A stretch of 31,036 nucleotides of DNA, from IMG/VR virus record IMGVR_UViG_3300017771_000060, positions 1-31,036 of that record, one strand, 5' to 3'. The notes under the pieces were generated by a model. That model was given only the letters and a program-made list of their open reading frames with translations, had not been told where the DNA came from and ran no database searches. The number at the start of each line of letters is the position of its first letter. The stretch's first letter is position 1. Origin of the DNA: a virus. Positions 2,486-30,832 of this stretch are shown here, piece by piece. The position numbers and the translations under genes were made by a program.

Positions 2486-2757
2486 TGAATATTGCTCAAG
2501 CTATATCAGAATATGGCTTTCCTATAGTAGCTACTGTTGGATTACTTTATATGATTTATTTTATATGGGGTTTTATTACTAACAATATTAAGAAAAAATT
2601 ATCTGAAGCTTCTATAACGCTTATAGCTTTAATTGACAGAATTAGGGTTTTAGATAATGATATTATAAGACTTCAACAAAAGCTGGATACGGTTATTGAG
2701 TTAAGAGATAACCAGGAGAAAGAAAATGCCAAAGAAAGTTCTAAGCAAGAAAGATAG
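2485..2757 (+). CDS. Single-helix membrane coiled-coil protein
   Basis: Encodes 90 residues. The membrane helix at about residues 10-31 follows the motif EYGFPIVAT, shared with the preceding protein (EVGFPIAMA). A coiled-coil tail follows (IDRIRVLDNDIIRLQQKLDT) and a very charged end. The two genes look like a tandem duplication that diverged. The end overlaps the csgF start by 32 bases, so it is translationally linked to the curli-like cassette. Holin, antiholin or membrane adaptor roles are all possible. Confidence 0.7.
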   Translation: MNIAQAISEYGFPIVATVGLLYMIYFIWGFITNNIKKKLSEASITLIALIDRIRVLDNDIIRLQQKLDTVIELRDNQEKENAKESSKQER

Positions 2758-3229
2758 AGAAGACCAAGATTTTTTAATTAAAATAATTATTGTTATAGGA
2801 TTAATATTAATAGCAGGAGTTATTAGTGTAAATGTTCAAGCAGATCAAATAACTCACAAATTTAAGTCACCATCATTTAATGGTGTAAATACATCTAGCC
2901 ATTATTTAACTATTGAGAATCAAGAGTTTAATAGACGGCAAACAATTAAAGATGAGCTAAAAGCCGCCATAGAAGAAGCTGAAAGAGACAAAGAAAACTC
3001 TACAGTTCAGAGGTTTATCAGAAATTTTGAAAGCAGGGTGTATGCAGAACTAAGCAGACAGCTTATTGCCAACCTATTTGGTGAAACACCATCTGACTCT
3101 GGAGTTATATCTTTAGAAGGGAATACAATAGAATACAGTACAGATGGAGATTTTTTAACATTGAGGATAACAGAAGCAGATGGTACAGTCACAGTTATTA
3201 CGATTCCTATTGGTAGCTTTACTTTCTAG
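2726..3229 (+). CDS. csgF: Curli secretion accessory protein CsgF homologue
   Basis: CsgF is a secreted curli factor whose N-terminal segment plugs into the CsgG channel and whose C-terminal domain faces the cell surface. The mature N-terminus here has ITHKFKSPSFNG, matching the CsgF pattern TFQFRNPNFGG. A helix follows at about residues 70-110, then a C-terminal beta domain (EYSTDGDFLTLRIT). The protein is 167 residues, longer than E. coli CsgF (138). The extra length includes a charged N-terminal extension of about 16 residues before the hydrophobic signal helix (17-37), with probable cleavage after VQA at 39. AGGAG at 2714-2718 supports the start. It overlaps the gene before by 32 bases and csgG by 50. 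Confidence 0.9.
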   Translation: MPKKVLSKKDREDQDFLIKIIIVIGLILIAGVISVNVQADQITHKFKSPSFNGVNTSSHYLTIENQEFNRRQTIKDELKAAIEEAERDKENSTVQRFIRNFESRVYAELSRQLIANLFGETPSDSGVISLEGNTIEYSTDGDFLTLRITEADGTVTVITIPIGSFTF

Positions 3230-4052
3230 TTGTTCTATCTTTGATCAGTATGAAGATACATACGAGCAAAGATTTAAAGCACATGATGTAGTACGAATAG
3301 ACGAGTTACAGTCTAAATACTTATTAAATGTTACACCTCCAACAATTAAACCAGTTGTTGCTGTATACCCTACATCATTTACAGATCAAACAGGACAAAG
3401 AAAAAGTAATAGTGAGTTTGCTTTATTTTCTACAGCAGTTACACAAGCACCACATACTTTATTAATTAGAGCACTTAAACATGCAAGTAATGGTGAATTT
3501 TTTAGAGTTGTAGAAAGAATTGGTTTAGATAATTTAACTAAAGAACGTCAGTTAATAAGATCAGCTAGAGAACAATTTGCAACAGATGAAGAAAAAAAGA
3601 AACAACTTGCTCCTTTATTATTTGCAGGAGTATTGTTAGAAGGTGCTGTTATTGCTTATGACAGTAATTTAACTACTGGTGGTATGGGTGCTAGATATTT
3701 AGGAATAGGTACAAGTATTCAATATAGAGAAGATAATATAACAGTTAGTCTTCGCATGGTATCAGTGTCAACAGGTGAAATACTTATAGAAGTATTAAGC
3801 CAAAAAACCATATTTAGTTATGGTAAGTCAGAAGATGTTTTTAGATTTATTGAAATGGGTACTGAGCTAGTAGAAATTGAGCTTGGTAATTCACGAAATG
3901 AATCAACAACTATTGCACTTATGAAAGCAATAGAAGGAGCGGTATTAGAACTTATTACTATCGGTTACGATAGGGGATTTTGGAAATATGAAGAACTTAA
4001 AATTAACAAGCCTAATTGTGATGATGATTGCATCGCCACTTTACGCGGCTGA
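3180..4052 (+). CDS. csgG: Curli secretion channel lipoprotein CsgG homologue
   Basis: CsgG forms a nonameric outer-membrane pore that exports curli subunits. The lipoprotein signal is short (residues 1-17), with lipobox LSSC and acylated Cys 18. Family landmarks appear in order: FTDQTGQ, FSTAVTQAPHTLL, ERQLIRSAR, VLLEGAVIAYDSNLTTGG, GARYLGIG, VSTGEIL, TIFSYG and VFRFIEM, then YDRGFW near the end. Length is 290, against 277 for E. coli CsgG. In the constriction loop the Phe of FSTAV, equal to F56, is kept. The Y51 and N55 positions are changed and one residue is inserted. The start overlaps csgF by 50 bases, so nearly all of the signal lies in csgF's last codons. No CsgE is seen nearby. Confidence 0.95.
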   Translation: MVQSQLLRFLLVALLSSCSIFDQYEDTYEQRFKAHDVVRIDELQSKYLLNVTPPTIKPVVAVYPTSFTDQTGQRKSNSEFALFSTAVTQAPHTLLIRALKHASNGEFFRVVERIGLDNLTKERQLIRSAREQFATDEEKKKQLAPLLFAGVLLEGAVIAYDSNLTTGGMGARYLGIGTSIQYREDNITVSLRMVSVSTGEILIEVLSQKTIFSYGKSEDVFRFIEMGTELVEIELGNSRNESTTIALMKAIEGAVLELITIGYDRGFWKYEELKINKPNCDDDCIATLRG

Positions 4053-4719
4053 TAACGAAATATATTTAGATCAAAGCGGTACTACACTTAATTTAGACAT
4101 TGAGCAGTTAGGTATATCAAACATTATTGGTGGACTGAATTCAACAGCAGGTAGTGTCAATGCTTTTGATATTGATGGTACAAGTATGACTATTGATATT
4201 AATATGATTGGAAACACTAACAAGTTTCTTGGTGATATATGGGCAGATAGCTTTACGGCACTTTATAACTTTACTGGTAACAGTAATACTTTTACTATTC
4301 AAGTTGACCCTTCTAATACTTTTGGTGCTGACTCTTCTAATCAAAATATAGCTGTTACTGGCTCTAGCAATACTTTTACTCTAAACCAAGGCACAACTGC
4401 TTTAGCAGCTACTTTAGATTTAGACTGGATTATCCAGGGTTCTAACAATACAGTTGTATCTAATATTAATATTGATGGTGCTACAAACTATATGGATATA
4501 GATGGTAGTGATAATACAGTTAATTATACTGGTACAGGTGTTTCAGCATCAGCAGGAGGTTACTTTTGGTTAGATCATACAGGTGGACAAAGAACATTCA
4601 ACATACAACAGTTAAGCACACAAGATAATGACTGGCTTAAAGTTATTAGTATTGGTGGCAATGCTGCTTCCACAGTTTGTATTATCCAAAACGACCAAGG
4701 AACAAGCACTAGCTGCTAA
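3988..4719 (+). CDS. Secreted curlin-repeat-like protein, candidate curli substrate
   Basis: Encodes 243 residues with a clear signal peptide (residues 1-20, ending SPLYA, cleaved before ADNE). The mature part lacks further membrane helices and is rich in Asn, Thr, Ser, Asp and Gly. It contains repeated strand-turn units with G-x-x-N turns: IEQLGISN, INMIGNTN, FTGNSNTF, VTGSSNTF, IIQGSNNT and IDGSDNTV. This resembles curlin repeats (x-I-x-Q-x-G-x-x-N) but is looser, with few of the usual Gln residues. The C-terminus carries two Cys (STVC and STSC). Its place directly after csgG, with the first 65 bases inside csgG's end, makes it the likely export substrate. A different beta-solenoid surface protein remains possible. 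Confidence 0.75.
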   Translation: MKNLKLTSLIVMMIASPLYAADNEIYLDQSGTTLNLDIEQLGISNIIGGLNSTAGSVNAFDIDGTSMTIDINMIGNTNKFLGDIWADSFTALYNFTGNSNTFTIQVDPSNTFGADSSNQNIAVTGSSNTFTLNQGTTALAATLDLDWIIQGSNNTVVSNINIDGATNYMDIDGSDNTVNYTGTGVSASAGGYFWLDHTGGQRTFNIQQLSTQDNDWLKVISIGGNAASTVCIIQNDQGTSTSC

Positions 4720-5746
4720 TATTGGTGGGATATCTGAACTTAATGGTTCAGCACAGATTGTAAGAGATGAGCCATTTATTGCAGAGGTAGATTTTGCAAT
4801 TCAAAGCAACGATGAAGCTGTTACTACTAATGGTCGTATGGCTATTACTTTTTTAGATGATAGTAAAGTAAGTTTGACAGAACATTCACAATTAATAATA
4901 GACGAGTATATATTTGATCCTGATCCTTCTAAATCAAAAATGGCTTTAACTTTTGGATTAGGTACTGCTAGATTTATTACAGGAAACTTAGGAAGAATAG
5001 ATAAACAAAATATATCCCTTAAAACTCCTACAGCTAACATAGCTATAAGAGGCACAGACTTTACAGCTACAGTAGATGAGTTAGGTAGATCATTAATAAT
5101 ACTTTTACCAGACGCTCTAGGACTTTCTAGCGGTGAAATAGAAGTTATTACTGCTATGGGTAGCGTATTACTTAATAAACCTTATGAAGCTACAACAGTA
5201 AGTGTATTTGAATCTCAACCAAGTAAACCAGTTATATTAGATTTAACTTTAGATATTATAGATAACATGCTTATTGTTACACCTCCTAAAAAAGAAATAA
5301 GTCTTACAGAAGAAGTATCACAAAATGCTAAAGCTAATATATTAGATTTTAATGACCTAGATGTAGATTATTTAGATCAAGATTTTTTTGCTGAAGACGA
5401 GTTAGAATTTACTGAATTAGATATTAATTATTTAGATGTAAACTTTCTTGAAGATTTATTAGATATATTAGATTCTTTAGCTATAAGTGAAGATGAAGAA
5501 ATATTAGCAGATGCAGGAAGAATTAATTTAACAGGAACTAAATTTGGACAAGACTCCGAAACGCAAATAACTACATTAATTGCAGGTGATGTTATAAGTG
5601 TTAGAAGAAAAGTTAATGATTCTATTAGATTAGATTTAAGTGGTAGCGGTTCTTATACCTTAATCTTAATACAAGATGGAGTAAGTAATGTTGTTAAGAT
5701 TAATGGTGGCGGTGACTCTAATATAACTATAACGCAAAGTGAATAA
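4628..5746 (+). CDS. Secreted FecR-domain protein with curlin-like C-terminal repeats
   Basis: Encodes 372 residues. A signal peptide (1-20, ending QFVLS) is followed by a FecR domain at about 35-145: GSAQIVRDEP, then AITFLDDSKVSLTEHSQL, IDEYIFDPD, and PTANIAIRGTDFTA. FecR domains of this periplasmic type often stand next to CHASE2 cyclases in bacteria. Residues 238-295 are very acidic, with two copies of a D-L-D-x-x-Y-L-D pattern. The last 36 residues (SGSGSYTLILIQDGVSN, then INGGGDSNITITQ) look like two curlin repeats, suggesting a bridge to the amyloid-like protein. The signal peptide is coded entirely inside the 3' end of the previous gene (92-base overlap). It overlaps the cyclase gene by 8 bases. 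Confidence 0.85.
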   Translation: MTGLKLLVLVAMLLPQFVLSKTTKEQALAANIGGISELNGSAQIVRDEPFIAEVDFAIQSNDEAVTTNGRMAITFLDDSKVSLTEHSQLIIDEYIFDPDPSKSKMALTFGLGTARFITGNLGRIDKQNISLKTPTANIAIRGTDFTATVDELGRSLIILLPDALGLSSGEIEVITAMGSVLLNKPYEATTVSVFESQPSKPVILDLTLDIIDNMLIVTPPKKEISLTEEVSQNAKANILDFNDLDVDYLDQDFFAEDELEFTELDINYLDVNFLEDLLDILDSLAISEDEEILADAGRINLTGTKFGQDSETQITTLIAGDVISVRRKVNDSIRLDLSGSGSYTLILIQDGVSNVVKINGGGDSNITITQSE

Positions 5747-7505
5747 GTTATTATTGCCTATACTTATAATACTAAGTTTGCCTTTAATATTTCAAAGCAC
5801 ACCAACAGAAATAATAAAACTTAAAACTTTTGATGCTTTAGTAACAATACCAGAACCATCTGGTAACTTTGTCATACTTAATATAACCGAAGAAGATGTA
5901 GAACGTGAAGGTGGTTATCCATTACCAAGACAAAGATTAGCAGAAATACAAATTGAGTTGTTAGAAAAAGGAGCTATTGGTGTAGGTTGGGTTATATCAT
6001 TTCCACAAGCAGATAGAATGGGTGGTGACGAAGCCTTTGCTACAACATTAAGTTATGCACCATCTGTTATTGCTATGTTTGAAGATGGTAAAGGTAACTA
6101 TCCTAAATTTACAGGTACAGTTGTCAAAGGTAATGATATTGGTGGTATAGTATCTAAGGGAGTTAAGGAAAACCTGAACACTCTATCAATAAATACATTA
6201 CAGGGTTTAGCCATTGCTCCCACTGAAGTTGATCAACTTGTAAGACGAATACCACTATTAGTACGAACACCAAACAATGAATGGATTCCTTCTTTTGGCA
6301 CACAAATATATAAAGCTTTATTTGGTGTAAAGACTTACATTATAAAAACTAATGATAATGGTATAGAAGAAATATCAATAAGAGGAATACCACCAGTTAA
6401 AACAGATAGTCTTGGTCGTAAGTGGATTAGTTGGGTAAATACACCACAAACTAATTTACAAGAAATGGATGTAACTGGTAGATTTGTTTTTGTTGGAGTA
6501 ACAGCTAATGGTGTAATGCCACAGATTGCAACTCCAGTTGGATTATTAGAACCTCATAAAATACAAACTGCATTAGCAGAATCTATATTAATTCAAGACT
6601 CTCCAACAGTACCAGATTGGAGTTTAGCAGTAGAAATTGCTATTTTTACTTTATTTGTAGCTCTGACATGGCTTGTATTGCATTGGTTTGGTATAACCCT
6701 AGGAATAAGTATAGCTAGTATTTTAATGCTTTCTACGGCTTTAGGTGGTTATTACTTTATACAAAAAGGTTTATTAATAGATGTAACTTGGACTTTAATA
6801 TCACAGTTTATAACAGCATCAATAGCTTTTTATTTAAGATTTCGAGAACAATATAAGTTAAGACAACAAATTAAGAAACAATTTGGTAAATATCTTGATC
6901 CAAGAATGGTTAAAAAGTTACAAAATAATCCAGAACTTTGCAAAGTAAATGGTAATAGAGTTGATTGCAGTATTATATTTACAGACCTTAGAGGATTTAC
7001 TAGTTTATCTGAATCAGTAGAACCTGAAATGGTTACATACATTATGAACAATGTACTAGATGTTCAGGTAAAAGCAGCTAATAAATATTTTGGATGTACT
7101 GATAAATTTATTGGCGATGCTGGTATGTTTCATTGGAATACAATAATTCCACAAGATGATCACCACAACCTAGCATTAGAAGCAGCTAAAGAAATAGAAA
7201 AGAATATTGACCAGTTAAATATTAAATTTAAAGAAGAAGGCATACCTGAAATAGCTATTGGTATTGGAGTAAACAGCGGTATATGTATTGCTGGTAACTT
7301 TGGAGCTACTGATAGATTTGCATTTTCTCTTATAGGCGATCCATGTAATATTGCTGCAAGATTAGAATCAAGTACAAAAGTCGCAGGAGTAGGAACATTA
7401 ATAGGCGAAGAAACTGCCAAAAAGTCTAAATTTAAGTTAAAATTATTAGAACCAATAGAGGTTAAAGGCAAGTCTAAAGCATTGCAGGTGTATACATGGA
7501 ATTAA
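5739..7505 (+). CDS. CHASE2-domain class III adenylate cyclase
   Basis: Encodes 588 residues. It has an N-terminal membrane helix (3-20) and an extracytoplasmic CHASE2 sensor domain at about 30-280 (FVILNITEEDVEREGGYPLP, LLEKGAIGVGWVISF). Three membrane helices follow at about 290-370, then a linker and a C-terminal cyclase domain (about 395-588) that makes cAMP from ATP in the cytoplasm. All expected residues are present: metal Asp 416 (IFTDLRGFT) and Asp 460 (KFIGD), the ATP-selecting Lys 456 and Asp 534, and transition-state Asn 537 and Arg 541 (GDPCNIAAR). It is therefore predicted active. Adenylate cyclases are very unusual in phages. The gene overlaps the FecR gene by 8 bases and the next by 10. 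Confidence 0.93.
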   Translation: MNKLLLPILIILSLPLIFQSTPTEIIKLKTFDALVTIPEPSGNFVILNITEEDVEREGGYPLPRQRLAEIQIELLEKGAIGVGWVISFPQADRMGGDEAFATTLSYAPSVIAMFEDGKGNYPKFTGTVVKGNDIGGIVSKGVKENLNTLSINTLQGLAIAPTEVDQLVRRIPLLVRTPNNEWIPSFGTQIYKALFGVKTYIIKTNDNGIEEISIRGIPPVKTDSLGRKWISWVNTPQTNLQEMDVTGRFVFVGVTANGVMPQIATPVGLLEPHKIQTALAESILIQDSPTVPDWSLAVEIAIFTLFVALTWLVLHWFGITLGISIASILMLSTALGGYYFIQKGLLIDVTWTLISQFITASIAFYLRFREQYKLRQQIKKQFGKYLDPRMVKKLQNNPELCKVNGNRVDCSIIFTDLRGFTSLSESVEPEMVTYIMNNVLDVQVKAANKYFGCTDKFIGDAGMFHWNTIIPQDDHHNLALEAAKEIEKNIDQLNIKFKEEGIPEIAIGIGVNSGICIAGNFGATDRFAFSLIGDPCNIAARLESSTKVAGVGTLIGEETAKKSKFKLKLLEPIEVKGKSKALQVYTWN

Positions 7506-18823: not shown

Positions 18824-21800
18824 ATGGCTGAATATAAGCTACCAGATGGAAAAATTCTTAATGTTGATGATAATGCAACACAAGAAGATTTAGTACAACT
18901 ACAAGGTAGGTTAGCAGAATTATATCCAGAACATTACTCTCCTTACAAAGAAGAAATAGAACAAACTTTTGGTGGGCATACTAGAGAAATTTTACGAGGT
19001 TTACCAGCAGGTATTGTTGATACAACTCTTTCAAGTGCTCAAGGTATATCCGAATACTTTGATGATGGCAATGATAACAAACTAACAGAAGGCATTAGAG
19101 GTATTAGAAAATATTACTCTGAAAGTGATCTTTATAAACCTGCTGAAGGATATGAAGATGCTTACTCAACTATGTTTGGTAAAGGTCTTGGTTCTATGAC
19201 TTCTCTTATTGGTGCTGGAATGGTAAATCCAGGTCTAGCATATACAATGGCAGCAGGTTTAGGTGTAGACCAACAAGCAGATAATATAAAAAGAACAAGA
19301 GAAGCTGGTAAAGAAGTTTCTGCTTTTCAAGAATTTGGAGCAGAAACATTATCTATACCTGTAGGTGTATCAGAAATGCTTAATCCTGCAAGATTATTAA
19401 GATTTTTAAAAAAAGATAATCCTGTTACACCAGGAATTAAAAATAAACTTATGTCAGCTTTTAAAACAGGTGGATTAGAAGCAGCACAAGAAGCAGGTGC
19501 AGGTATAGCACAAAATATTATATCATCAGGTGGACCTTTTGGATTTACTGATGGTGTATATGATGCAGAAATTCCTCTGACAGAATCTTCTCTTGATGAT
19601 GCTACAGTTGGTTTTGGTGTAGGTGCTGCTGCTGATCTTATTTTTAAATCATTTGGTGGAAGAAGAAATGTTGGAAATGTTTACAATCAAGAACAAGCTG
19701 AACAACAAGATAAACAATTACAACAACAAGATGAAATAATAAAAGAAAGAGTTATATTAGCTTCACAACAAGGAGATCAAGTTATTGATCCTGAATTAAT
19801 TACTAATGAAACATCATTTGGTATAAATCAAGAAGAAATTGTAGAAGGTGAAATAATAGAACCTCCTATATTAGAAACATATAAATTTGTTCCAAACGAA
19901 GATGGATCAGTTAATATTCTTGGTAATACTACAGGAGAAAGTATTGGTGTACTTCCTGATATAGAACAAGCAGGTAAATTTGCCACAGAAACAACTAAAC
20001 AAAAAAGAAATGAATTTATAGTAAGCTCTGCTTTACAAGCCTCATCTATTAATGGATTACTTGGCAATGGTACAGCTACAAGAATAGGACAAAAAATATA
20101 TGATCCTATGAACAATTTTTTAGATGCAAAAGCTATGGCTAATTTTGATTCTAAAATAAGTGAAAAAAGACAAAGACTAGCTAAAGTAGAAGAAGAGATA
20201 GCACAAAATGAAGCTGAAGGTGTTAATAAATTAGTAAATAGTTTAATGGAAAATACAGATACAACTGGATTATCTATAGAAGAATTAGGTGAATTAAAAT
20301 TAGATTTAGAAACTAAACTTTCTAATATACCTGGTGCATATCCAATAAAAGGAAACAAAGTAGACCCATCAAGTACATTGGGTTTATTTTGGAAGTCAGC
20401 AGAAAAAAAAGGAATTGGTAAAAAAAGTTTTTATACAATAAATGAAGCTAAAAAATTATTAAATGCAAATGACTTTAATGCATTTATGTCAGAAAAAGCT
20501 GCTATTCAATTTAAAAAAGTAGAAGCTACAGATCAATTAGAAGCAGTTGCAAGAATTAAAGGTAAAGTAGATACATCTGAAGCACAGATTAATAAAACTT
20601 TTAAATCAAAAAACATTGATGTTGATTACAATAGTCCTGCATTTGAATATCTTGCAGAACAATTTACTGGTGCAAAAAAACTTAACTCAATGAGTAAAGG
20701 TCAAAAAGAAATGTTGATTGCACAGGTAAAAAGTTTACCTAGATTTAATGTTAAAACAAAACTTCCTAATTATGCTCCAAGACCATACACAGCAAATCAA
20801 TTAAATAATTTTTATAATCAATTTGAAGGTCAAAAATTTACTAACAATGATATAAAACTTGGTATTAAAAATAATCAAACAGGTGGTAATCTTACACCAA
20901 AACAAATCAATCAATTTAAAACAGATTTATTAGATAGTGGTCGTGCCGATAAAACAAAAGGCAGATTAACTATGACTAATAATTTTAGAACTCAACAAGC
21001 TCTTAAGGCTGAAAGTTTTATAAATGAAACAAAAAATGAATTTGCAGAAAGATTACAAAGAACTACTACATTATTACCAGAAGAAATTAATGCTGTTGTT
21101 GAAGGAGATGGTATATATGAACAAGGTGTTATAAATGCTGAAGATGTTTTAAAACTTCCTTCTCCTATAGCAGAAGAAAAATATTTACAATTTTTACCTG
21201 CTCTTAAAGAAAGATTAAATTCTTATGGTTTAAAAGATGTAGGTATTCGTTTTGATAATGCTTTAAAAGCTTCATTAAATATTAGACAAAAAGATGGTAA
21301 AACTTTTTATAAACCTACAGATAAAAGTGCTGATGCTTTATATGATAGACCTTTAAAAACTATTATTGCTTCAATGGAAAGAGTTGATTCAACAGGCACA
21401 CTAACAGAAACTGAATTAGAAGCAAAGCTAACAAACATTTTAGATCACGAAACAGTACATGCATTAGTACAAATGAATTTGCTTAAACAAAGTGAGTTTC
21501 AATTATTGATAAAAGAAGCAAATAAAAGGATACCAAAAAGACAACTTGATTCAATTAAAAATAGATATGCAGATTTAACAGAGCTACAAATTAATGAAGA
21601 ATTAGTTGCTGAATTATTTAGATTACATAGAAACAATCCTCAGTTATTAGCACCTAAACCTAAAACTATAATAGATAAAATTATTAAATTTTTTACTAAT
21701 ACTATACAAACAATATATGACTCTGCATTTACTAGTCCTAGAACTATATTAAAAGATATAGAAAGTGGAGTAATAGGTAGTAGAGAAAGAGGTGAAATTA

Positions 21801-24800
21801 GAAATTATAGAAACTTAGAAATTAGTGAACAAAATAAAAATACAGAAACTCCTTCAGCTAATGTAGAAGAATTAGCTAAATTAAGAGATAGACTTTATAG
21901 ATTAGAATCTATCTATAATCAAGATTACGCAAGAATGAGTAATGCTAATGCTACTAAAAATCAAAAAGACAGATTTTTATTAGAAAGAAAAATAGAAGAA
22001 TTAGAAAAAGAATCTCCTTCATTTAACAAACCAACAGAATTTGAATTAGCTGGATTGAAAAAGTTTAGAAAAGGTATGATGGCTAGCATTGCAGATGGTG
22101 TTCAAGAAATGCAAAAAGTTAGATTGCAATATATAAAAGATGGTGTATTTGGTCCATTTAGAGTTGGTCGTAGATTTATTACAAAACAATTTGGTGCAGA
22201 TAGAATTTATGAAATTAAAGTACAAACAATTACTGGAAGTGGAAAAAACACACCTTATTATCCAGTAATTAAAGTAGAAATGGTTGGTGGAAAAACTGAT
22301 CGCACAAATGAATTTAGTCCAAAAATTGGTGATGAATCAACAATGGTAGTTCGTTTCATGGATGAAAGAAAAGCAAACAGTTTGCTTGATTTAATAGAAA
22401 ATGATCCAAATTATATAAAATTTTATGATGGTCCAAAAGAAATAGAAGAAACTCCTTCATATAATAGAGCAGGTTTATTACCTAAAGAACTTTTATATGC
22501 TGGTCAGTTAGAAGAACAAGTATATAAAACATGGCGTGATAATAATAAAAATCCTAAAGCAGAAGACTTTAAAGCATTACATAAAATATTAGCACCGCAG
22601 TCTAAAAGAAAACATGATTTTGTAGATTACTCTGAATTAAAATCAGATGTAAAAAAAGCTGCTGAAATAGGAATAGATTCTAAGTGGTATGAAAAATGGG
22701 GTACAAACATTCCTAATATTATAGGCTCTGCAAACATGCGTGAGTTTTCAGGTATATTTGGAATTACTTCTGCACAAGCAACACCTGAAAAAAATCTACA
22801 AGATACATTTAGAACAATGATTATTGCTAGAAAATATAATCCTGAAACACAACGCAAAAAATTTATAACAGAATTAAGAAGAGCTGGTGTAGGTAAGTCA
22901 GCAAAAGCTAGAGCAGAAGCTATAGCAAATTTTTATAAACTAGGAATTTTTGCTAGAGAAGGTTCTTCTCAAAAAACATTAACTTATGCATTAGAAGTAT
23001 TAGCTGCATCTAATGGAGAATTTACACCATTTATGGTAGTTGATAGACATATGTTAAGAAAGTTTGGTTTAGATGCTAGCACAACAGCAGCAACTGAAAT
23101 TGATTATAGAATGGTTCAAGCAATAAATGCTTTATTAGCTACTGAAAATTATACAGTTAATGGGCAACCAGTTAATTTTAATCCACCTCAAATACAAGCA
23201 TTGTTATGGGGTCATCAAAGATATACAGGATCAACAGCAGCTAAAATTACAAACGAAGGCAGTTATGATTCTGCTTTACAATATTCTCAAAAAGAAGTAG
23301 CTGAATTAAAAGAAATGGAAAAAGCAGGTTCTTTTGATTTAGACAATCCTTTTTCTGGTAACTTTATAAGTCCTCCAAGATATACAAGTAATAAAAAAAG
23401 CGATATTTTTAACACTGATCTTGCAAAGAATATGTACGAGTCTATTCTTAATTCTGCACCACAAACTATTATTAGTTTTAAATTTGGTAAAACTAGAGGA
23501 TATCTACCTCAACAATTACAAGAAGCAATACCTTTTGAAAGATGGATGCAGTATCAAAATAATGTATTAAAAGGAATTACTTCTGGAGGCAAAATAAAAT
23601 TTTTGCGTACTTTAGGTATACCACATGATGTATCTATTTCAGCAGCAACATGGGAAGGAGAAGTTAATCCAACTGTAATATTAAAACTACCTGGAGCTGA
23701 TCCACAAACACAAAAAGCTGTAGCTGCTGTATTTACAGATGCATTTATGCAAGATGCTTCTATAGTTGCAATGCCTCAAGAAAAAGGTACATCTAAAACT
23801 TCTTTACTTATTACTAAAATAGATAATGATAAATTTAGTAAAGCAGAAATAGACAATGTACAAACGCGACTTTCACAATTAGTAAGAGATAATAAACCTT
23901 TAGACTTTATGGTTTCTGCTACAAACAAAACTGGTATAATTTTAACTGACCCTAAACAATATAGTGGTGATCCCTATACTGTTAAAGACTTAAATGATTT
24001 TATACAATTAGTAAAACCTGCATTATTAACATCAGGATTAGGATTAGAAAAATATGGACAAAAATCAGAACTCATTAGATATGGAAGAGACACAAGCGAA
24101 TCCGCAGGAACTAGAGGAGCTCTTAGACAACTTGGGAATAAAGTCGGTTTCACCAACACATCCGATCTACAACGAGCAGCCATTCGTGACCTTTATATCC
24201 CCACCTTCGAAGAATACAAAAATTTAGCTAATGAGATTGGTTTTGAAATAAAATCTACACCACCTTATCTAGAAGAAGATTCAGCACTTAGTGGTATTTT
24301 AGATTTTAATGCAGAAGAAATAGCTAAAGTAGAAGCTATAAGAAATAAAGATATAGAAGATACAGCTAGAGGAATGATTCCTAAGTATGGTATTAATGCA
24401 AGTCCTATTGCATTAAAAATAGCTTTTGATTTTGAAAATGAAATAGAGACTTTAACACCTAAAGAAACTCCATCTTATTCTAGAAAAGATGCAAAAGTGC
24501 CAGATAAATATAAAGATATAGTTGATGATCTTGGTGGTGCAAATAAACCAGATAAAAGTTTTTCTGATACATTAATAGATGTTACAGATTTTACTGAAGA
24601 TGCAGGAAGTTTTTTATCTAGAATGAGACAAGCTATTGTAGACAATCTTGCTATAGTAGAAAAAGGAACTCAAAAAGCTGCAAGTTTAAATGAAGAGGTA
24701 AGAGAAAGACAACAATCAGCAGAAACAGGTGCGTTGCAAGCTTTACGATTTGCAGGGCAATCAAGAGGCTTATTTTCTAAAATGTTAACAGTAGGTATTC

Positions 24801-27187
24801 CTGTATATCAAGATGGAGGAACTGTTGTTGTTCCATTTAAACATGGTGGATTAATACAAATATTTGCACCATTATGGGAAAATTCAGCAATAGATTTAGA
24901 ATCAATTTATAAATTATATTCTATTGGTCAAAGGTCAACAAGATTAAATAAAGAAGGAAAATTAGTTCCTTTAACTAAAGAACAAATAAAATTAGTAGAA
25001 GATATTGAAGCTGATTATAAAGTTGTTGTAGAAGTTTATAATCAATATCAAGAATTTAATAATGCTTTATTAGATTATGCTAAAGCTTCTGGCATTTTAG
25101 GTGGAACTACATTAGTTGAAGATAGTACAGGAAGTGTTGAAGTTGGAAAACAAAATGGTAAAAAAGATGGAAAAAAATATATCTTAAAAGATACAGTTGA
25201 ATTATGGAAAGAAAATTCAGACTATTATCCATTTTATAGACAAATGTCAGATGAAAATATTGGTGGTCCAAAAGTTGCATCAGGTTTTTTAGGACCAAAT
25301 CCATTATCTTTTAAATTAAAAGGAAGCGAAGAAGCTATAGAGCCAGCACCATTAGAAGTTATTTCAAGAAATATGATTTCTATTATGTATTCTTCAATGA
25401 AGAATCAAGGACTAGCACGTTTAATGGAAGAGTATGAACTTGCTGAAATGGCAGTTAAAATTTTACCAACAGAAGCTCAAGGAACAAATGTTATACCAGT
25501 ATATATTAATGGTCAAAAACAATTCTATAGAGTAGCAGACCCATTACTTGTGTTTGGATTACAGTCTATGGGTTTAAATGATGTAGAAGGATTTACAAAA
25601 ATTCTTGGTGTTCCATCATCAATATTAAGAGAAACTGTAACTCGTGATCCTGGTTTTATATTAAAAAATATGTTGCGAGACACTCTTTCTGCTGCTGTTA
25701 CTAGTGATGCAAATATTACTCCATTTGTTGATACATTTAAAAACTTTAATGCAGATTTAACAGAATTAGAAAATAGAGGAATTATAGGTGGGTATGATGC
25801 AGCAAATGATAGACAAGGTATTGTTAAACAAATTAATAAACTTTTAAAAGAAGAAGGCAGACAAGAAGATGGAGGACTATCAACAATAGATAGTATTGTA
25901 AAAATTTGGGATTGGCTAGGAAGTCAAACAACAAAATCAGATGGAGCAACAAGAAAAGCTGTAGCCGATAAAATATATGAGTTGACTGGCAGTAATGTAG
26001 AAGCATCTTATCAAGGTTTAGAAATAATAAACTTTAATAGAAGAGGTGGTTCTCCTATTGTAAAACTTATTACTACAGGAATACCTTTTTTAAATGCAAG
26101 AATACAAGGTTTGGATGTTTTATATAGATCACATACTGGTAAGTATTCTGCAAGTATTAGCAAAGAAAATTTAGATAAATCTGCTGAAGAAATAGCAATG
26201 GGTATTAGAAAAAGAGCAATGACTCGTGGATTAATGTTGACATTTATTACTGGTTTATATTATTTATTAGTGGGAGATGACGAACAATACAGAGGCAGAA
26301 GAGTAGAAGAAAGAGATGATAACTGGTTAATATTCTTTGGAGAAGGTGTAGAGCCTTTAAAAATTCCAGTTCCATTTGAAGTAGGTTTTATATATAAAAC
26401 TGTTCCTGAAAGAGCTTTTGATTTAGCTTTTGGAAGAAGTAATATAAATGACACAACAAAATCTATAAAAAGAGGGGTAGTAAATACCCTTAAAGTAGAC
26501 CCATTAGGTTTTCAATTAGTTAAACCTCTTACAGAAGTGATAAATAATAAAAGCACATATACAGGAAATGCAATTATTCCTTATTACATGGAAAAAGGTT
26601 TAGACCCACAAGAACAAGTCACCATGAATACTACAGAATTAGCAAGAGGTATTGGTAAAGCGTTAAACATATCTCCTATGAAGATAGATTATCTTATGAA
26701 AGGCTATGGTGGAACTTTAGGGACTTATCTACTTACTATGGGTGATTTAGCTGTCAGACAGGTTACAGGAAGAGATTATGTTACTCCTAGGCTAAGTAGT
26801 ATGCCTTTTGTTAGAAGTCTATTTGCATCTCCTTATGGTGGTGGTTTTCAACAACAGTTTTATGAGTTAAGAGCAGTCAGCAATAGATATCAACAAACTT
26901 TAAATAAACTTAAAACTGATGGAAGAATGGATGAATACAATGCTTACAGACAAAACAATAAAGGTTTAGCACAAACAAGAAAATCAGTGTTAAAACTTGA
27001 AAAGTTTTTAGCAGATTATAGAAAAAAGAAAAAAAAGATAGAGTTACATCCAACAATGTCAGGAAAACAAAAGAGAATAGCGTTAGATCAATTAGAAAGA
27101 AATAGAGACATGAGATTATCAGTTGTGCCTAAGATGATTGAAAGAGCAGATATACCATCTTATGGACAAAATTTATTTAGAAACTAG
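18824..27187 (+). CDS. Giant polyvalent-type virion protein with HEXXH site
   Basis: At 2787 residues this is the largest gene. Residues 1-40 resemble N-termini of large phage internal proteins (YKLPDGKILNVDDNATQEDL). A hydrophobic Gly-rich segment lies near 117-155. HETVH at 875-879 and the downstream NEELVAELF (Glu 925-930) look like a zinc-metallopeptidase-like domain seen in large polyvalent proteins. About residues 1214-1470 form another folded domain (FSGIFGITSAQATPEKN, FMVVDRHMLRKFGL). Near 2408-2540, FLNARIQGLDVLYR and a short hydrophobic helix (LMLTFITGLYYLLVG) resemble large polyvalent protein domain LPD38. Such proteins are probably carried in the virion and enter the cell with DNA. 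Confidence 0.8.
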   Translation: MAEYKLPDGKILNVDDNATQEDLVQLQGRLAELYPEHYSPYKEEIEQTFGGHTREILRGLPAGIVDTTLSSAQGISEYFDDGNDNKLTEGIRGIRKYYSESDLYKPAEGYEDAYSTMFGKGLGSMTSLIGAGMVNPGLAYTMAAGLGVDQQADNIKRTREAGKEVSAFQEFGAETLSIPVGVSEMLNPARLLRFLKKDNPVTPGIKNKLMSAFKTGGLEAAQEAGAGIAQNIISSGGPFGFTDGVYDAEIPLTESSLDDATVGFGVGAAADLIFKSFGGRRNVGNVYNQEQAEQQDKQLQQQDEIIKERVILASQQGDQVIDPELITNETSFGINQEEIVEGEIIEPPILETYKFVPNEDGSVNILGNTTGESIGVLPDIEQAGKFATETTKQKRNEFIVSSALQASSINGLLGNGTATRIGQKIYDPMNNFLDAKAMANFDSKISEKRQRLAKVEEEIAQNEAEGVNKLVNSLMENTDTTGLSIEELGELKLDLETKLSNIPGAYPIKGNKVDPSSTLGLFWKSAEKKGIGKKSFYTINEAKKLLNANDFNAFMSEKAAIQFKKVEATDQLEAVARIKGKVDTSEAQINKTFKSKNIDVDYNSPAFEYLAEQFTGAKKLNSMSKGQKEMLIAQVKSLPRFNVKTKLPNYAPRPYTANQLNNFYNQFEGQKFTNNDIKLGIKNNQTGGNLTPKQINQFKTDLLDSGRADKTKGRLTMTNNFRTQQALKAESFINETKNEFAERLQRTTTLLPEEINAVVEGDGIYEQGVINAEDVLKLPSPIAEEKYLQFLPALKERLNSYGLKDVGIRFDNALKASLNIRQKDGKTFYKPTDKSADALYDRPLKTIIASMERVDSTGTLTETELEAKLTNILDHETVHALVQMNLLKQSEFQLLIKEANKRIPKRQLDSIKNRYADLTELQINEELVAELFRLHRNNPQLLAPKPKTIIDKIIKFFTNTIQTIYDSAFTSPRTILKDIESGVIGSRERGEIRNYRNLEISEQNKNTETPSANVEELAKLRDRLYRLESIYNQDYARMSNANATKNQKDRFLLERKIEELEKESPSFNKPTEFELAGLKKFRKGMMASIADGVQEMQKVRLQYIKDGVFGPFRVGRRFITKQFGADRIYEIKVQTITGSGKNTPYYPVIKVEMVGGKTDRTNEFSPKIGDESTMVVRFMDERKANSLLDLIENDPNYIKFYDGPKEIEETPSYNRAGLLPKELLYAGQLEEQVYKTWRDNNKNPKAEDFKALHKILAPQSKRKHDFVDYSELKSDVKKAAEIGIDSKWYEKWGTNIPNIIGSANMREFSGIFGITSAQATPEKNLQDTFRTMIIARKYNPETQRKKFITELRRAGVGKSAKARAEAIANFYKLGIFAREGSSQKTLTYALEVLAASNGEFTPFMVVDRHMLRKFGLDASTTAATEIDYRMVQAINALLATENYTVNGQPVNFNPPQIQALLWGHQRYTGSTAAKITNEGSYDSALQYSQKEVAELKEMEKAGSFDLDNPFSGNFISPPRYTSNKKSDIFNTDLAKNMYESILNSAPQTIISFKFGKTRGYLPQQLQEAIPFERWMQYQNNVLKGITSGGKIKFLRTLGIPHDVSISAATWEGEVNPTVILKLPGADPQTQKAVAAVFTDAFMQDASIVAMPQEKGTSKTSLLITKIDNDKFSKAEIDNVQTRLSQLVRDNKPLDFMVSATNKTGIILTDPKQYSGDPYTVKDLNDFIQLVKPALLTSGLGLEKYGQKSELIRYGRDTSESAGTRGALRQLGNKVGFTNTSDLQRAAIRDLYIPTFEEYKNLANEIGFEIKSTPPYLEEDSALSGILDFNAEEIAKVEAIRNKDIEDTARGMIPKYGINASPIALKIAFDFENEIETLTPKETPSYSRKDAKVPDKYKDIVDDLGGANKPDKSFSDTLIDVTDFTEDAGSFLSRMRQAIVDNLAIVEKGTQKAASLNEEVRERQQSAETGALQALRFAGQSRGLFSKMLTVGIPVYQDGGTVVVPFKHGGLIQIFAPLWENSAIDLESIYKLYSIGQRSTRLNKEGKLVPLTKEQIKLVEDIEADYKVVVEVYNQYQEFNNALLDYAKASGILGGTTLVEDSTGSVEVGKQNGKKDGKKYILKDTVELWKENSDYYPFYRQMSDENIGGPKVASGFLGPNPLSFKLKGSEEAIEPAPLEVISRNMISIMYSSMKNQGLARLMEEYELAEMAVKILPTEAQGTNVIPVYINGQKQFYRVADPLLVFGLQSMGLNDVEGFTKILGVPSSILRETVTRDPGFILKNMLRDTLSAAVTSDANITPFVDTFKNFNADLTELENRGIIGGYDAANDRQGIVKQINKLLKEEGRQEDGGLSTIDSIVKIWDWLGSQTTKSDGATRKAVADKIYELTGSNVEASYQGLEIINFNRRGGSPIVKLITTGIPFLNARIQGLDVLYRSHTGKYSASISKENLDKSAEEIAMGIRKRAMTRGLMLTFITGLYYLLVGDDEQYRGRRVEERDDNWLIFFGEGVEPLKIPVPFEVGFIYKTVPERAFDLAFGRSNINDTTKSIKRGVVNTLKVDPLGFQLVKPLTEVINNKSTYTGNAIIPYYMEKGLDPQEQVTMNTTELARGIGKALNISPMKIDYLMKGYGGTLGTYLLTMGDLAVRQVTGRDYVTPRLSSMPFVRSLFASPYGGGFQQQFYELRAVSNRYQQTLNKLKTDGRMDEYNAYRQNNKGLAQTRKSVLKLEKFLADYRKKKKKIELHPTMSGKQKRIALDQLERNRDMRLSVVPKMIERADIPSYGQNLFRN
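24088..24212 (+). other. Compositional island inside the giant gene
   Basis: Counting by hand, bases 24091-24210 contain 58 G or C of 120, about 48 percent, while a nearby 60-base block at 23881-23940 has 17, about 28 percent. C-ending codons such as ATC, TCC, ACC and CCC gather here. The reading frame continues through it, encoding GRDTSESAGTRGALRQLGNK and following residues. Recent exchange with a higher-GC relative or a hidden nucleic-acid signal could explain it. Confidence 0.65.
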
Positions 27188-27968: not shown

Positions 27969-28114
27969 ATACTAAAGTAATCAGCATCATCCTTTTTTTT
28001 CAATTCTAGCCTGTTGCAAAACAAACTATCCTCTACATCTTTTGTCATTTCTTTCAACCAAATGATCTGCTCTTCTTGTTTCTTTATCTTTTTCTCTAAC
28101 TCTTCTTTATTCAT
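27965..28114 (-). CDS. Small charged helical protein (49 aa)
   Basis: Read directly from the minus strand: ATG at 28114, TGA ending at 27965. The 49 residues are a charged helix (MNKEELEKKIKKQEEQIIWL) with a short tail ending DADYFSI. It overlaps the HNH gene stop by 8 bases and the RusA start by 4 (ATGA), exactly filling the space between them, which is the best evidence that it is real. Its function is unknown. A coiled-coil partner for one of the recombination proteins is conceivable. Confidence 0.7.
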   Translation of the reverse strand: MNKEELEKKIKKQEEQIIWLKEMTKDVEDSLFCNRLELKKKDDADYFSI

Positions 28115-28409
28115 TTAATAACTCCTCTACTAATTCTAGTAATTCTTTTTCTGTTCCATATTCTTTTTCAAACCTTCGCTTCCAAGGATGCCTACTAATA
28201 GGCTCTTGATCTCTGCCACCTCTATGATGTTCATAACATAAAGGCAGAACCTTAAAGTGTGATTCTAATTTAGTCTTGCCTTGAGTATGATGGATTTCAG
28301 CAGGGACTATACCCAAACCTTTATTCCTACAAACAATGCAACCCAGTTGACTTACATTGTCCATATGCTTAGATTCATTTTTTGTTGGACTTCTTCCTTT
28401 TATCGCCAT
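28107..28409 (-). CDS. HNH-type endonuclease
   Basis: Encodes 100 residues from the ATG at 28409. Residues 20-62 contain CIVCRNKG, then IHHTQGKTKLESHF, and LCYEHHRGG, an HNH/zinc-finger nuclease layout with Cys-x2-Cys and paired His. This resembles the RecA-dependent nuclease (Ref)-like and other small phage HNH proteins, found among recombination genes. The end (EYGTEKELLELVEELLNE) is helical. The start is preferred because AAGAAGAAAG precedes it. The longer frame to 28496 would overlap the 44-aa gene and its N-terminus looks unnatural. Confidence 0.82.
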   Translation of the reverse strand: MAIKGRSPTKNESKHMDNVSQLGCIVCRNKGLGIVPAEIHHTQGKTKLESHFKVLPLCYEHHRGGRDQEPISRHPWKRRFEKEYGTEKELLELVEELLNE

Positions 28410-28509
28410 CTTTCTTCTTCTTTCCAAATATTTCTTCAAAGTTCTTATCAAACCTATCCTTATCATAAGGCTTCTGAATACTGCCTTTCCCCCCATGCCA
28501 TTTAGCCAT
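28375..28509 (-). CDS. Small basic protein (44 aa), overlapping HNH gene
   Basis: Read from the minus strand: ATG at 28509, TGA at 28375-28377. The product begins MAKWHGGKGSIQKPYDKDRF and ends with a Lys-rich tail. The WHGGKGS opening is a pattern I recall from small phage proteins of unknown role. It overlaps the ribbon-helix-helix-like gene stop by 8 bases and the HNH start by 35, consistent with coupled translation. Its function is unknown. Confidence 0.68.
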   Translation of the reverse strand: MAKWHGGKGSIQKPYDKDRFDKNFEEIFGKKKKDGDKRKKSNKK

Positions 28510-29832: not shown

Positions 29833-30159
29833 TTAAAAAGGTATGTCTTCTTCGCCAAAAGTATCAGCATTATCATTCACGCTAACAACTGGTTCTGCTA
29901 CTTGCTCAACCTGTGCCTGCTTAACCTCTAGTCTTGAATACTTATACTCGTTACCATTCTTTGATGTTCTATTCCACAACGCTTGTTTTAATATAACACC
30001 TCCATTCTCACCAAGATCGCCTGCCTTTACCTTCTTTACAAGTTCTTTCAGCATAGCTTTAGACATCTCAACCTCTCCTGTCCAATCAGGCTTTGTATCT
30101 TTGTCCTTAAATTTATTGGTGAAAATTGCACCATCACATTTCATTTCATTATTATCCAT
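29833..30159 (-). CDS. Putative single-stranded DNA-binding protein
   Basis: Encodes 108 residues. The C-terminus, FGEEDIPF, matches the acidic tip of SSB (DDDIPF) that recruits replication and repair proteins. A Gln/Val-rich linker and a short folded part precede it, with GVILKQALWNRTSKNGNEY as a possible strand pair of an OB fold. It is much shorter than E. coli SSB and lacks obvious family landmarks in the N-terminal part, so the call rests on the tail and on the place beside the annealing protein. It overlaps the previous gene by 8 bases. Confidence 0.65.
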   Translation of the reverse strand: MDNNEMKCDGAIFTNKFKDKDTKPDWTGEVEMSKAMLKELVKKVKAGDLGENGGVILKQALWNRTSKNGNEYKYSRLEVKQAQVEQVAEPVVSVNDNADTFGEEDIPF

Positions 30160-30832
30160 TGTTCTTTTCCTCCTCTAGGGTTTTAACAATAAGTTTTAGT
30201 TCTCCATCCAACGCTTCCTTAAGTTCAGGATAGCTTTCTCTTAAAATAGTTAAGTCCTTAGTATTACTCTTGTAATAAGATGTCATACCATCTTTGCTAC
30301 TTTGCAACTTAGCTAATTTTAAAAAACTGTCTACAAAGGTGATCGCCCACGCTTTGTCTTTTTCAATCTTCTTAGGTTTTTCTGCTACAGGTTCAGCCTT
30401 AGTCTCTACTGGTACTTCTTCTTTATCAGAAGTAGGCACATCTTCACCTGCATAAATGTAATGACCAAGACCATACATAGCCATACACTTGACCAAACAT
30501 CGCATCTTAGAATTGTTTACTTGGCTTGAGTTAGGATTTTGTATAGCATTGTTTCTATTATCCATAACACACAAAGTCATTTCTCTACTAAGATTATCTA
30601 TAGAAATTCTACATCTAACTTCTGCTGTTCCATCAGGAAATTTGACATAAGGTACATCACTTTCGCCTTGATAGAATATGTAAGTAGCTTGCGGATAGTG
30701 TTCCATTAATACACCCCATCCCCATGCCCATGATAAATAAGATAGATTCATCTTCTTTTCTACCTTATCGCTACAATCTACCTTAGATAGATTGTCCCAT
30801 ACATCTTTGTATGTAATTTCTTTAGTTGGCAT
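30152..30832 (-). CDS. Single-strand annealing protein, Sak3/DUF1071-like
   Basis: Annealing recombinases pair complementary DNA strands in phage recombination and replication. The 226-residue protein begins with a region including KKMNLSYLSWAWGWGVLMEH, followed by PQATYIFYQG, and has NSKMRCLVKCMAMYGLGHYI at about residues 107-126, a layout that fits the Sak3/DUF1071 group. A Glu/Pro/Lys-rich linker (VPVETKAEPVAEKPKK) leads to a helical C-terminus. AGGAGGTGG precedes the ATG at 30832. It is followed by the SSB-like gene, a common partner order. Confidence 0.82.
   Translation of the reverse strand: MPTKEITYKDVWDNLSKVDCSDKVEKKMNLSYLSWAWGWGVLMEHYPQATYIFYQGESDVPYVKFPDGTAEVRCRISIDNLSREMTLCVMDNRNNAIQNPNSSQVNNSKMRCLVKCMAMYGLGHYIYAGEDVPTSDKEEVPVETKAEPVAEKPKKIEKDKAWAITFVDSFLKLAKLQSSKDGMTSYYKSNTKDLTILRESYPELKEALDGELKLIVKTLEEEKNNG

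Follow-up and report, generated by a model that had tools for sequence, protein, structure and literature searches.

The window, by which we mean the whole 31,036-nucleotide stretch of viral DNA analysed here, carries a giant gene on the plus strand (18824–27187), an open frame for a phage polyvalent protein of 2,787 amino acids. An LPD38 domain is located near the C-terminus (residues 2493–2650; 26300–26773, plus strand; PF18857, E = 1.2e-32), and with 114 bits against a cutoff of 27 this match places the giant protein among the LPD38 polyvalent proteins. Its PHROG matches are each to families of unknown function. Profile matches also delimit a mid-domain (amino acids 1490–1860; 23291–24403, plus strand), which houses the nested frame described below. 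A structural model of the mid-domain (pLDDT 71.6, pTM 0.73) had no matches at E ≤ 0.001 in the PDB and 17 at E ≤ 0.001 in a viral structure library; as the latter are mostly unnamed or LPD-type proteins, no function could be gained from them. In the PDB, the giant's mid-region weakly matched a protein with a GP-PDE domain (E = 0.025).

Elsewhere, the window contains a curli-type gene run (2726–7505) encoding CsgF (PF10614, E = 2.3e-14), CsgG (PF03783, E = 3.4e-48), a repeat protein that by eye looks curlin-like, FecR (PF04773), and then a CHASE2 protein with a nucleotide cyclase domain (PF05226, PF00211). Both csgG and curli are mentioned in the pelagiphage literature (PMC9599517 and two further papers). 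On the minus strand are genes for a member of a RecA-dependent nuclease family (28107–28496; PF16786) and for a Sak single-strand annealing protein (30152–30832; PF06378).

Within the giant gene, positions 24088–24212 (plus strand) form a GC-rich island of C-ending codons, as defined by composition and synonymous shuffles. Its GC content is 0.480, compared to 0.305 for the giant gene (18824–27187) and 0.334 for the window. No other 125-base stretch of the giant gene is as rich in GC (the runner-up, at 19139, has 0.416), and 1.7% of 125-base stretches in the whole window match or exceed it. C-ending codons account for 14 of the 42–43 codons in the island (33%, versus 4.2% across the giant gene), and 14 is the maximum over any 42 codons of the gene. 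This number was attained in 0 of 5,000 synonymous shuffles, in which the maximum was 11; the GC3 signal is weaker alone, with 15 attained in 7 of 5,000 synonymous shuffles. The initial annotation had described an island of approximately 48% GC with a cluster of C-ending codons and an intact main frame, and all three observations hold, as the main frame is unbroken across the island.

When the main-frame protein around the island was used as a query against IMG/VR, six loci were matched, with 43–46% amino acid identity in the best segment. Each of the six has the same GC-rich, C-ending tract at the corresponding alignment position, and their core DNA is nearly identical; a search for the tract in other phages, one of the checks initially proposed, is answered by these relatives. 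Translation in all frames revealed that the +1 frame is open through the tract in the window and in all six relatives and encodes a common peptide, while the antisense frames across the tract have stops in most relatives. In the window, this nested overlapping frame (24054–24227, plus strand; +1 relative to the giant gene) extends from an ATG at 24054 to a TAG at 24225–24227 and is 57 codons long. A shorter alternative start in the same frame, ATG 24081, would yield 48 amino acids (24081–24227, plus strand) and has a weaker ribosome-site score. The peptide has the core VSxxHPIYxEPPSVIF, and its alignment, used as the sole query, matched 11 loci. Four phages (L022, L023, L024, and L025) were first reached via the nested peptide, having been missed by the earlier main-frame queries, and a wider peptide alignment then added a fifth (L036); a later main-frame profile, built including the peptide-found phages, likewise recovered the majority of them. 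The core main-frame residues of L023 and L025 differ, yet their +1 peptide retains VSPxHPIYK.

Twelve giants, with 29–51% identity to the giant of the window, were aligned. In 12/12 of them, the +1 frame runs open through the tract, whereas 2,000 synonymous shuffles gave no more than 4/12, and the alternative frame is thus open across diverged homologues beyond chance. All of the best +1 open segments of the giant gene are at 24077–24098, and the +2 frame, scanned in 42-codon segments along the gene, is never open in more than two giants.

Conservation at synonymous sites, which had also been proposed as a check, has its gene-wide maximum on the island: among the 12 giants, it is strongest at 24092–24166 (plus strand), with a pair-z of 18.9 (pairs are not independent, and the standard deviation of the score is 3.3). 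The adjoining segment, 24167–24241, has a pair-z of 10.6, and the next non-adjoining peak reaches 9.9. This second peak (23159–23233) has conserved residues and ordinary codons, and in the openness scan it is absent from the best alternative-frame segments. In the tract, identity in the +1 frame is 0.541, compared to a mean of 0.272 and a maximum of 0.311 in 500 shuffles. Identity in the +2 frame is also raised (0.442 versus 0.241), a rise that any synonymous conservation would cause. Main-frame identity in the tract is 0.494, and residues are partly conserved there too; over the shared stretch, the small protein equals or exceeds the giant in conservation (0.541 versus 0.494).

At main-frame position 3, identity of the 11 other giants to the window is 0.57–0.79 in the tract and 0.36–0.52 in the remaining gene, whereas at position 1 it is not raised (0.43–0.65 versus 0.46–0.62). 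The difference between positions 3 and 1, scored over all pairs except two near-duplicates, is the highest of the gene at 24083 (+0.21; mean −0.10, standard deviation 0.087). Among seven close pairs, two of which share one member, changes at main positions 1, 2, and 3 number 16, 7, and 6 in 120 nested bases versus 65, 45, and 130 in 300 bases downstream; the position-3 deficit in the nested stretch has a Fisher p of 0.0007, with pairs that are not fully independent. Substitutions are thus focused on main position 1, which is free in the tract and serves as the wobble position of the nested frame. The same phase relationship accounts for the C-ending codons, because main position 3 corresponds to position 2 of the nested frame, where C specifies Pro, Ser, Thr, or Ala, and these four residues are abundant in the conserved parts (core and tail) of the nested peptide. 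Selection on the nested protein would set main-frame third positions to C for these residues, and the GC-rich, C-ending patch is explained by selection acting on this second protein. The island is therefore most likely a stretch of double coding, with a second small protein in the +1 frame.

The wider distribution of the nested frame was assessed from the other end of the giant. A profile of its C-terminus found 360 relatives in IMG/VR, 80 of which constitute the analysed set. The nested profile, run on six-frame pieces of 132 sequences (several loci repeat one contig), produced 82 matches that reduce to 24 distinct frames, all of them matched by the profile and each lying +1 inside a long open frame; two of these, L003 and L004, encode an identical nested protein from the start codon. 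A final scan with the 24-member profile returned 24 loci and no additional distinct frame. Rather than the smooth low GC that the initial annotation had considered for homologues, C-ending codons are elevated in the nested stretch of 24/24 carriers and total GC in 23/24 (the exception being L045). Of the 80 C-terminally fetched giants, 31 have the nested frame, and this set coincides fully with the giants whose match to the mid-domain profile spans the nested site (31/31). For one further giant (L086), the match is confined to the end of the profile, and the remaining C-terminal loci are without a detectable mid-domain or too short. The mid-domain profile was built from nested carriers, and a distant mid-domain without the nested frame could escape it. 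Frames reached only through the C-terminal search are also open in 12/12 cases (maximum 6/12 in 2,000 shuffles), a test that is biased in that the frames were picked by the nested profile; the co-occurrence with the mid-domain is, unlike this test, an unbiased statement.

Three loci without a detectable mid-domain (L053, L109, and L117) have a +1 frame of 51–68 amino acids at about the nested position, approximately 1,340–1,400 bases before the C-terminal match. The nested profile fails to detect these frames, which may be diverged or shortened nested genes. In a cultured-phage collection, no relative of the region was found by DNA or protein search, nor any relative of two nested peptides; two weak matches, both to Escherichia phage Tls (E = 0.2), were attributed to chance, and matches of the nested profile to seven cultured LPD38 phage loci (best E = 0.6) were rejected. 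Genome contigs scanned with the nested profile yielded seven pattern matches and no relatives.

By a rule combined with visual inspection, the nested start was assigned as ATG in 21 of the 24 distinct frames and as TTG in the other three (L070, L072, and L115). AAGGAG is located six bases ahead of the TTG in L070 and L072, and AGGAG is ahead of the ATG in L085. Strong ribosome-site scores (≤ −5) occur at 8/24 assigned starts, and some of the others have a weak site or none; for comparison, the median is −5.6 for the other genes of the window, whereas that of ATGs lying out of frame within the giant gene is −0.9, with 6% of these at ≤ −5. In the window, ATG 24054 has a moderate score (−4.0) and ATG 24081 scores +0.2. 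The position of the nested start varies among lineages, and several nested ATGs overlap a conserved main-frame Tyr-Gly, so that these could be present by chance. A protein of approximately 57 amino acids would arise by internal initiation on the mRNA of the giant gene, and from the start codons and ribosome sites it is likely that the frame is initiated internally. We infer that it is translated from ATG or TTG. Overall, the sequence comparisons argue strongly for double coding by a nested +1 gene at 24054–24227, which very probably exists as such and is most likely translated by internal initiation.

The nested proteins (24 members) are 52–67 amino acids long, lack Trp, vary in charge, and have a mean hydropathy of −1.22 to −0.60. 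A membrane segment was sought in all 24 and none was found, the highest hydropathy over 19 residues being 0.47. An AlphaFold model of the peptide (pLDDT 74.7, pTM 0.32) contains a single short helix in an otherwise loose chain, and its confidence is too weak for a fold search. The product would be soluble and partly disordered. Searches of the nested peptide against Pfam and PHROG gave no family at a convincing score, and those against the PDB no convincing relative; Pfam and PHROG matches at E = 0.03–0.25, including toxin-named families, were each obtained by one of ten members and were rejected as chance. While overlaps of this kind are already known, the family itself is new with respect to Pfam, PHROGs, and the PDB, the libraries searched.

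Among other explanations, a programmed +1 frameshift fares best. Slipping ribosomes would produce a shortened giant with a tail of approximately 40 residues encoded by the tract; the nested frame is in the correct phase for such a shift, some nested starts have no good ribosome site, and the main frame of several homologues has a CTT AGG or CTT GGG stretch, reminiscent of known +1 shift sites. However, that stretch is by eye missing from L025 and L036, so a shift site is not conserved, and both the peptide and the synonymous constraint start upstream of it (24107 onward). Moreover, the core is preceded by an ATG or TTG in all 24 distinct frames, with AAGGAG ahead of two of the three TTGs, and a frameshift is therefore quite improbable. 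The initial annotation also raised a constrained RNA or DNA element (packaging, regulatory, or an origin) under nucleotide-level selection. The constraint itself is real, since the tract is the synonymous peak of the gene, but it is protein-coding: position 3 is extra-conserved and position 1 is left free, which disfavours a nucleotide element, and a single alternative frame open in 12/12 giants is not expected from one. In addition, the consensus fold of the tract has five pairs and only −0.65 kcal/mol, single-strand RNA folds are ordinary (z = +0.49 and z = −0.74), and an Rfam search of the tract gave no match, making such an element very improbable. Finally, the recombination tract or assembly chimera initially suggested by a composition unlike the flanks is next to inconceivable, and is ruled out because homologues of approximately 45% identity from separate assemblies share the tract in the corresponding position of an unbroken frame, and C-ending codons are up in every carrier.

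Nested genes have precedents among phages. Rz1, a lysis lipoprotein, is encoded by a +1-frame gene nested in Rz of lambda-like phages, which is likewise a gene of a tailed dsDNA phage; in contrast to Rz1, the peptide described here has no hydrophobic segment. Similarly, gene E of phiX174 lies inside gene D and specifies a short protein in another frame of a longer gene, and, according to a portion of PMC8227390, a T bias at D third positions supplies E second positions and thereby leucines. Here, C at nested second positions instead supplies Pro, Ser, Thr, or Ala. The gene that holds the overlap belongs to a tailed phage and specifies a giant polyvalent protein, and the nested product is hydrophilic, without a membrane segment or a convincing named relative. 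The enclosing gene belongs to the class of large LPD38 polyvalent proteins treated in PMC5512222, and the relevant part of that paper mentions no overlapping gene for them. Viral genes commonly overlap, and in the survey of PMC7017920 at least one gene overlap occurs in 61% of dsDNA virus reference genomes; a literature search for the overlap described here found no report.

What the nested protein does can be approached from its context. Phage proteins of the LPD38 polyvalent class are predicted to be packaged in the virion and injected (PMC5512222), and disorder and accessory roles are frequent among overprinted proteins (PMC8227390). On these grounds, our guess is that the nested protein is a small accessory partner, such as an assembly helper or modulator, of the virion-carried giant and shares its mRNA. 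Alternatively, it could be an inhibitor or antidote that silences the enclosing domain of the polyvalent protein until injection. The 31/31 co-occurrence is compatible with this second role and is equally expected from simple nesting, and we regard the role as doubtful; if true, the effector domain would not be exchangeable between phages without its keeper.

Gene callers easily miss nested genes, and a composition oddity spotted by eye can lead to one that is hidden. The nested +1 gene would represent a family of small proteins retained despite considerable divergence (identity of the giant to that of the window down to 29%) inside a presumed-injected class of proteins, and a testable case of double coding that has persisted for long in tailed phages.
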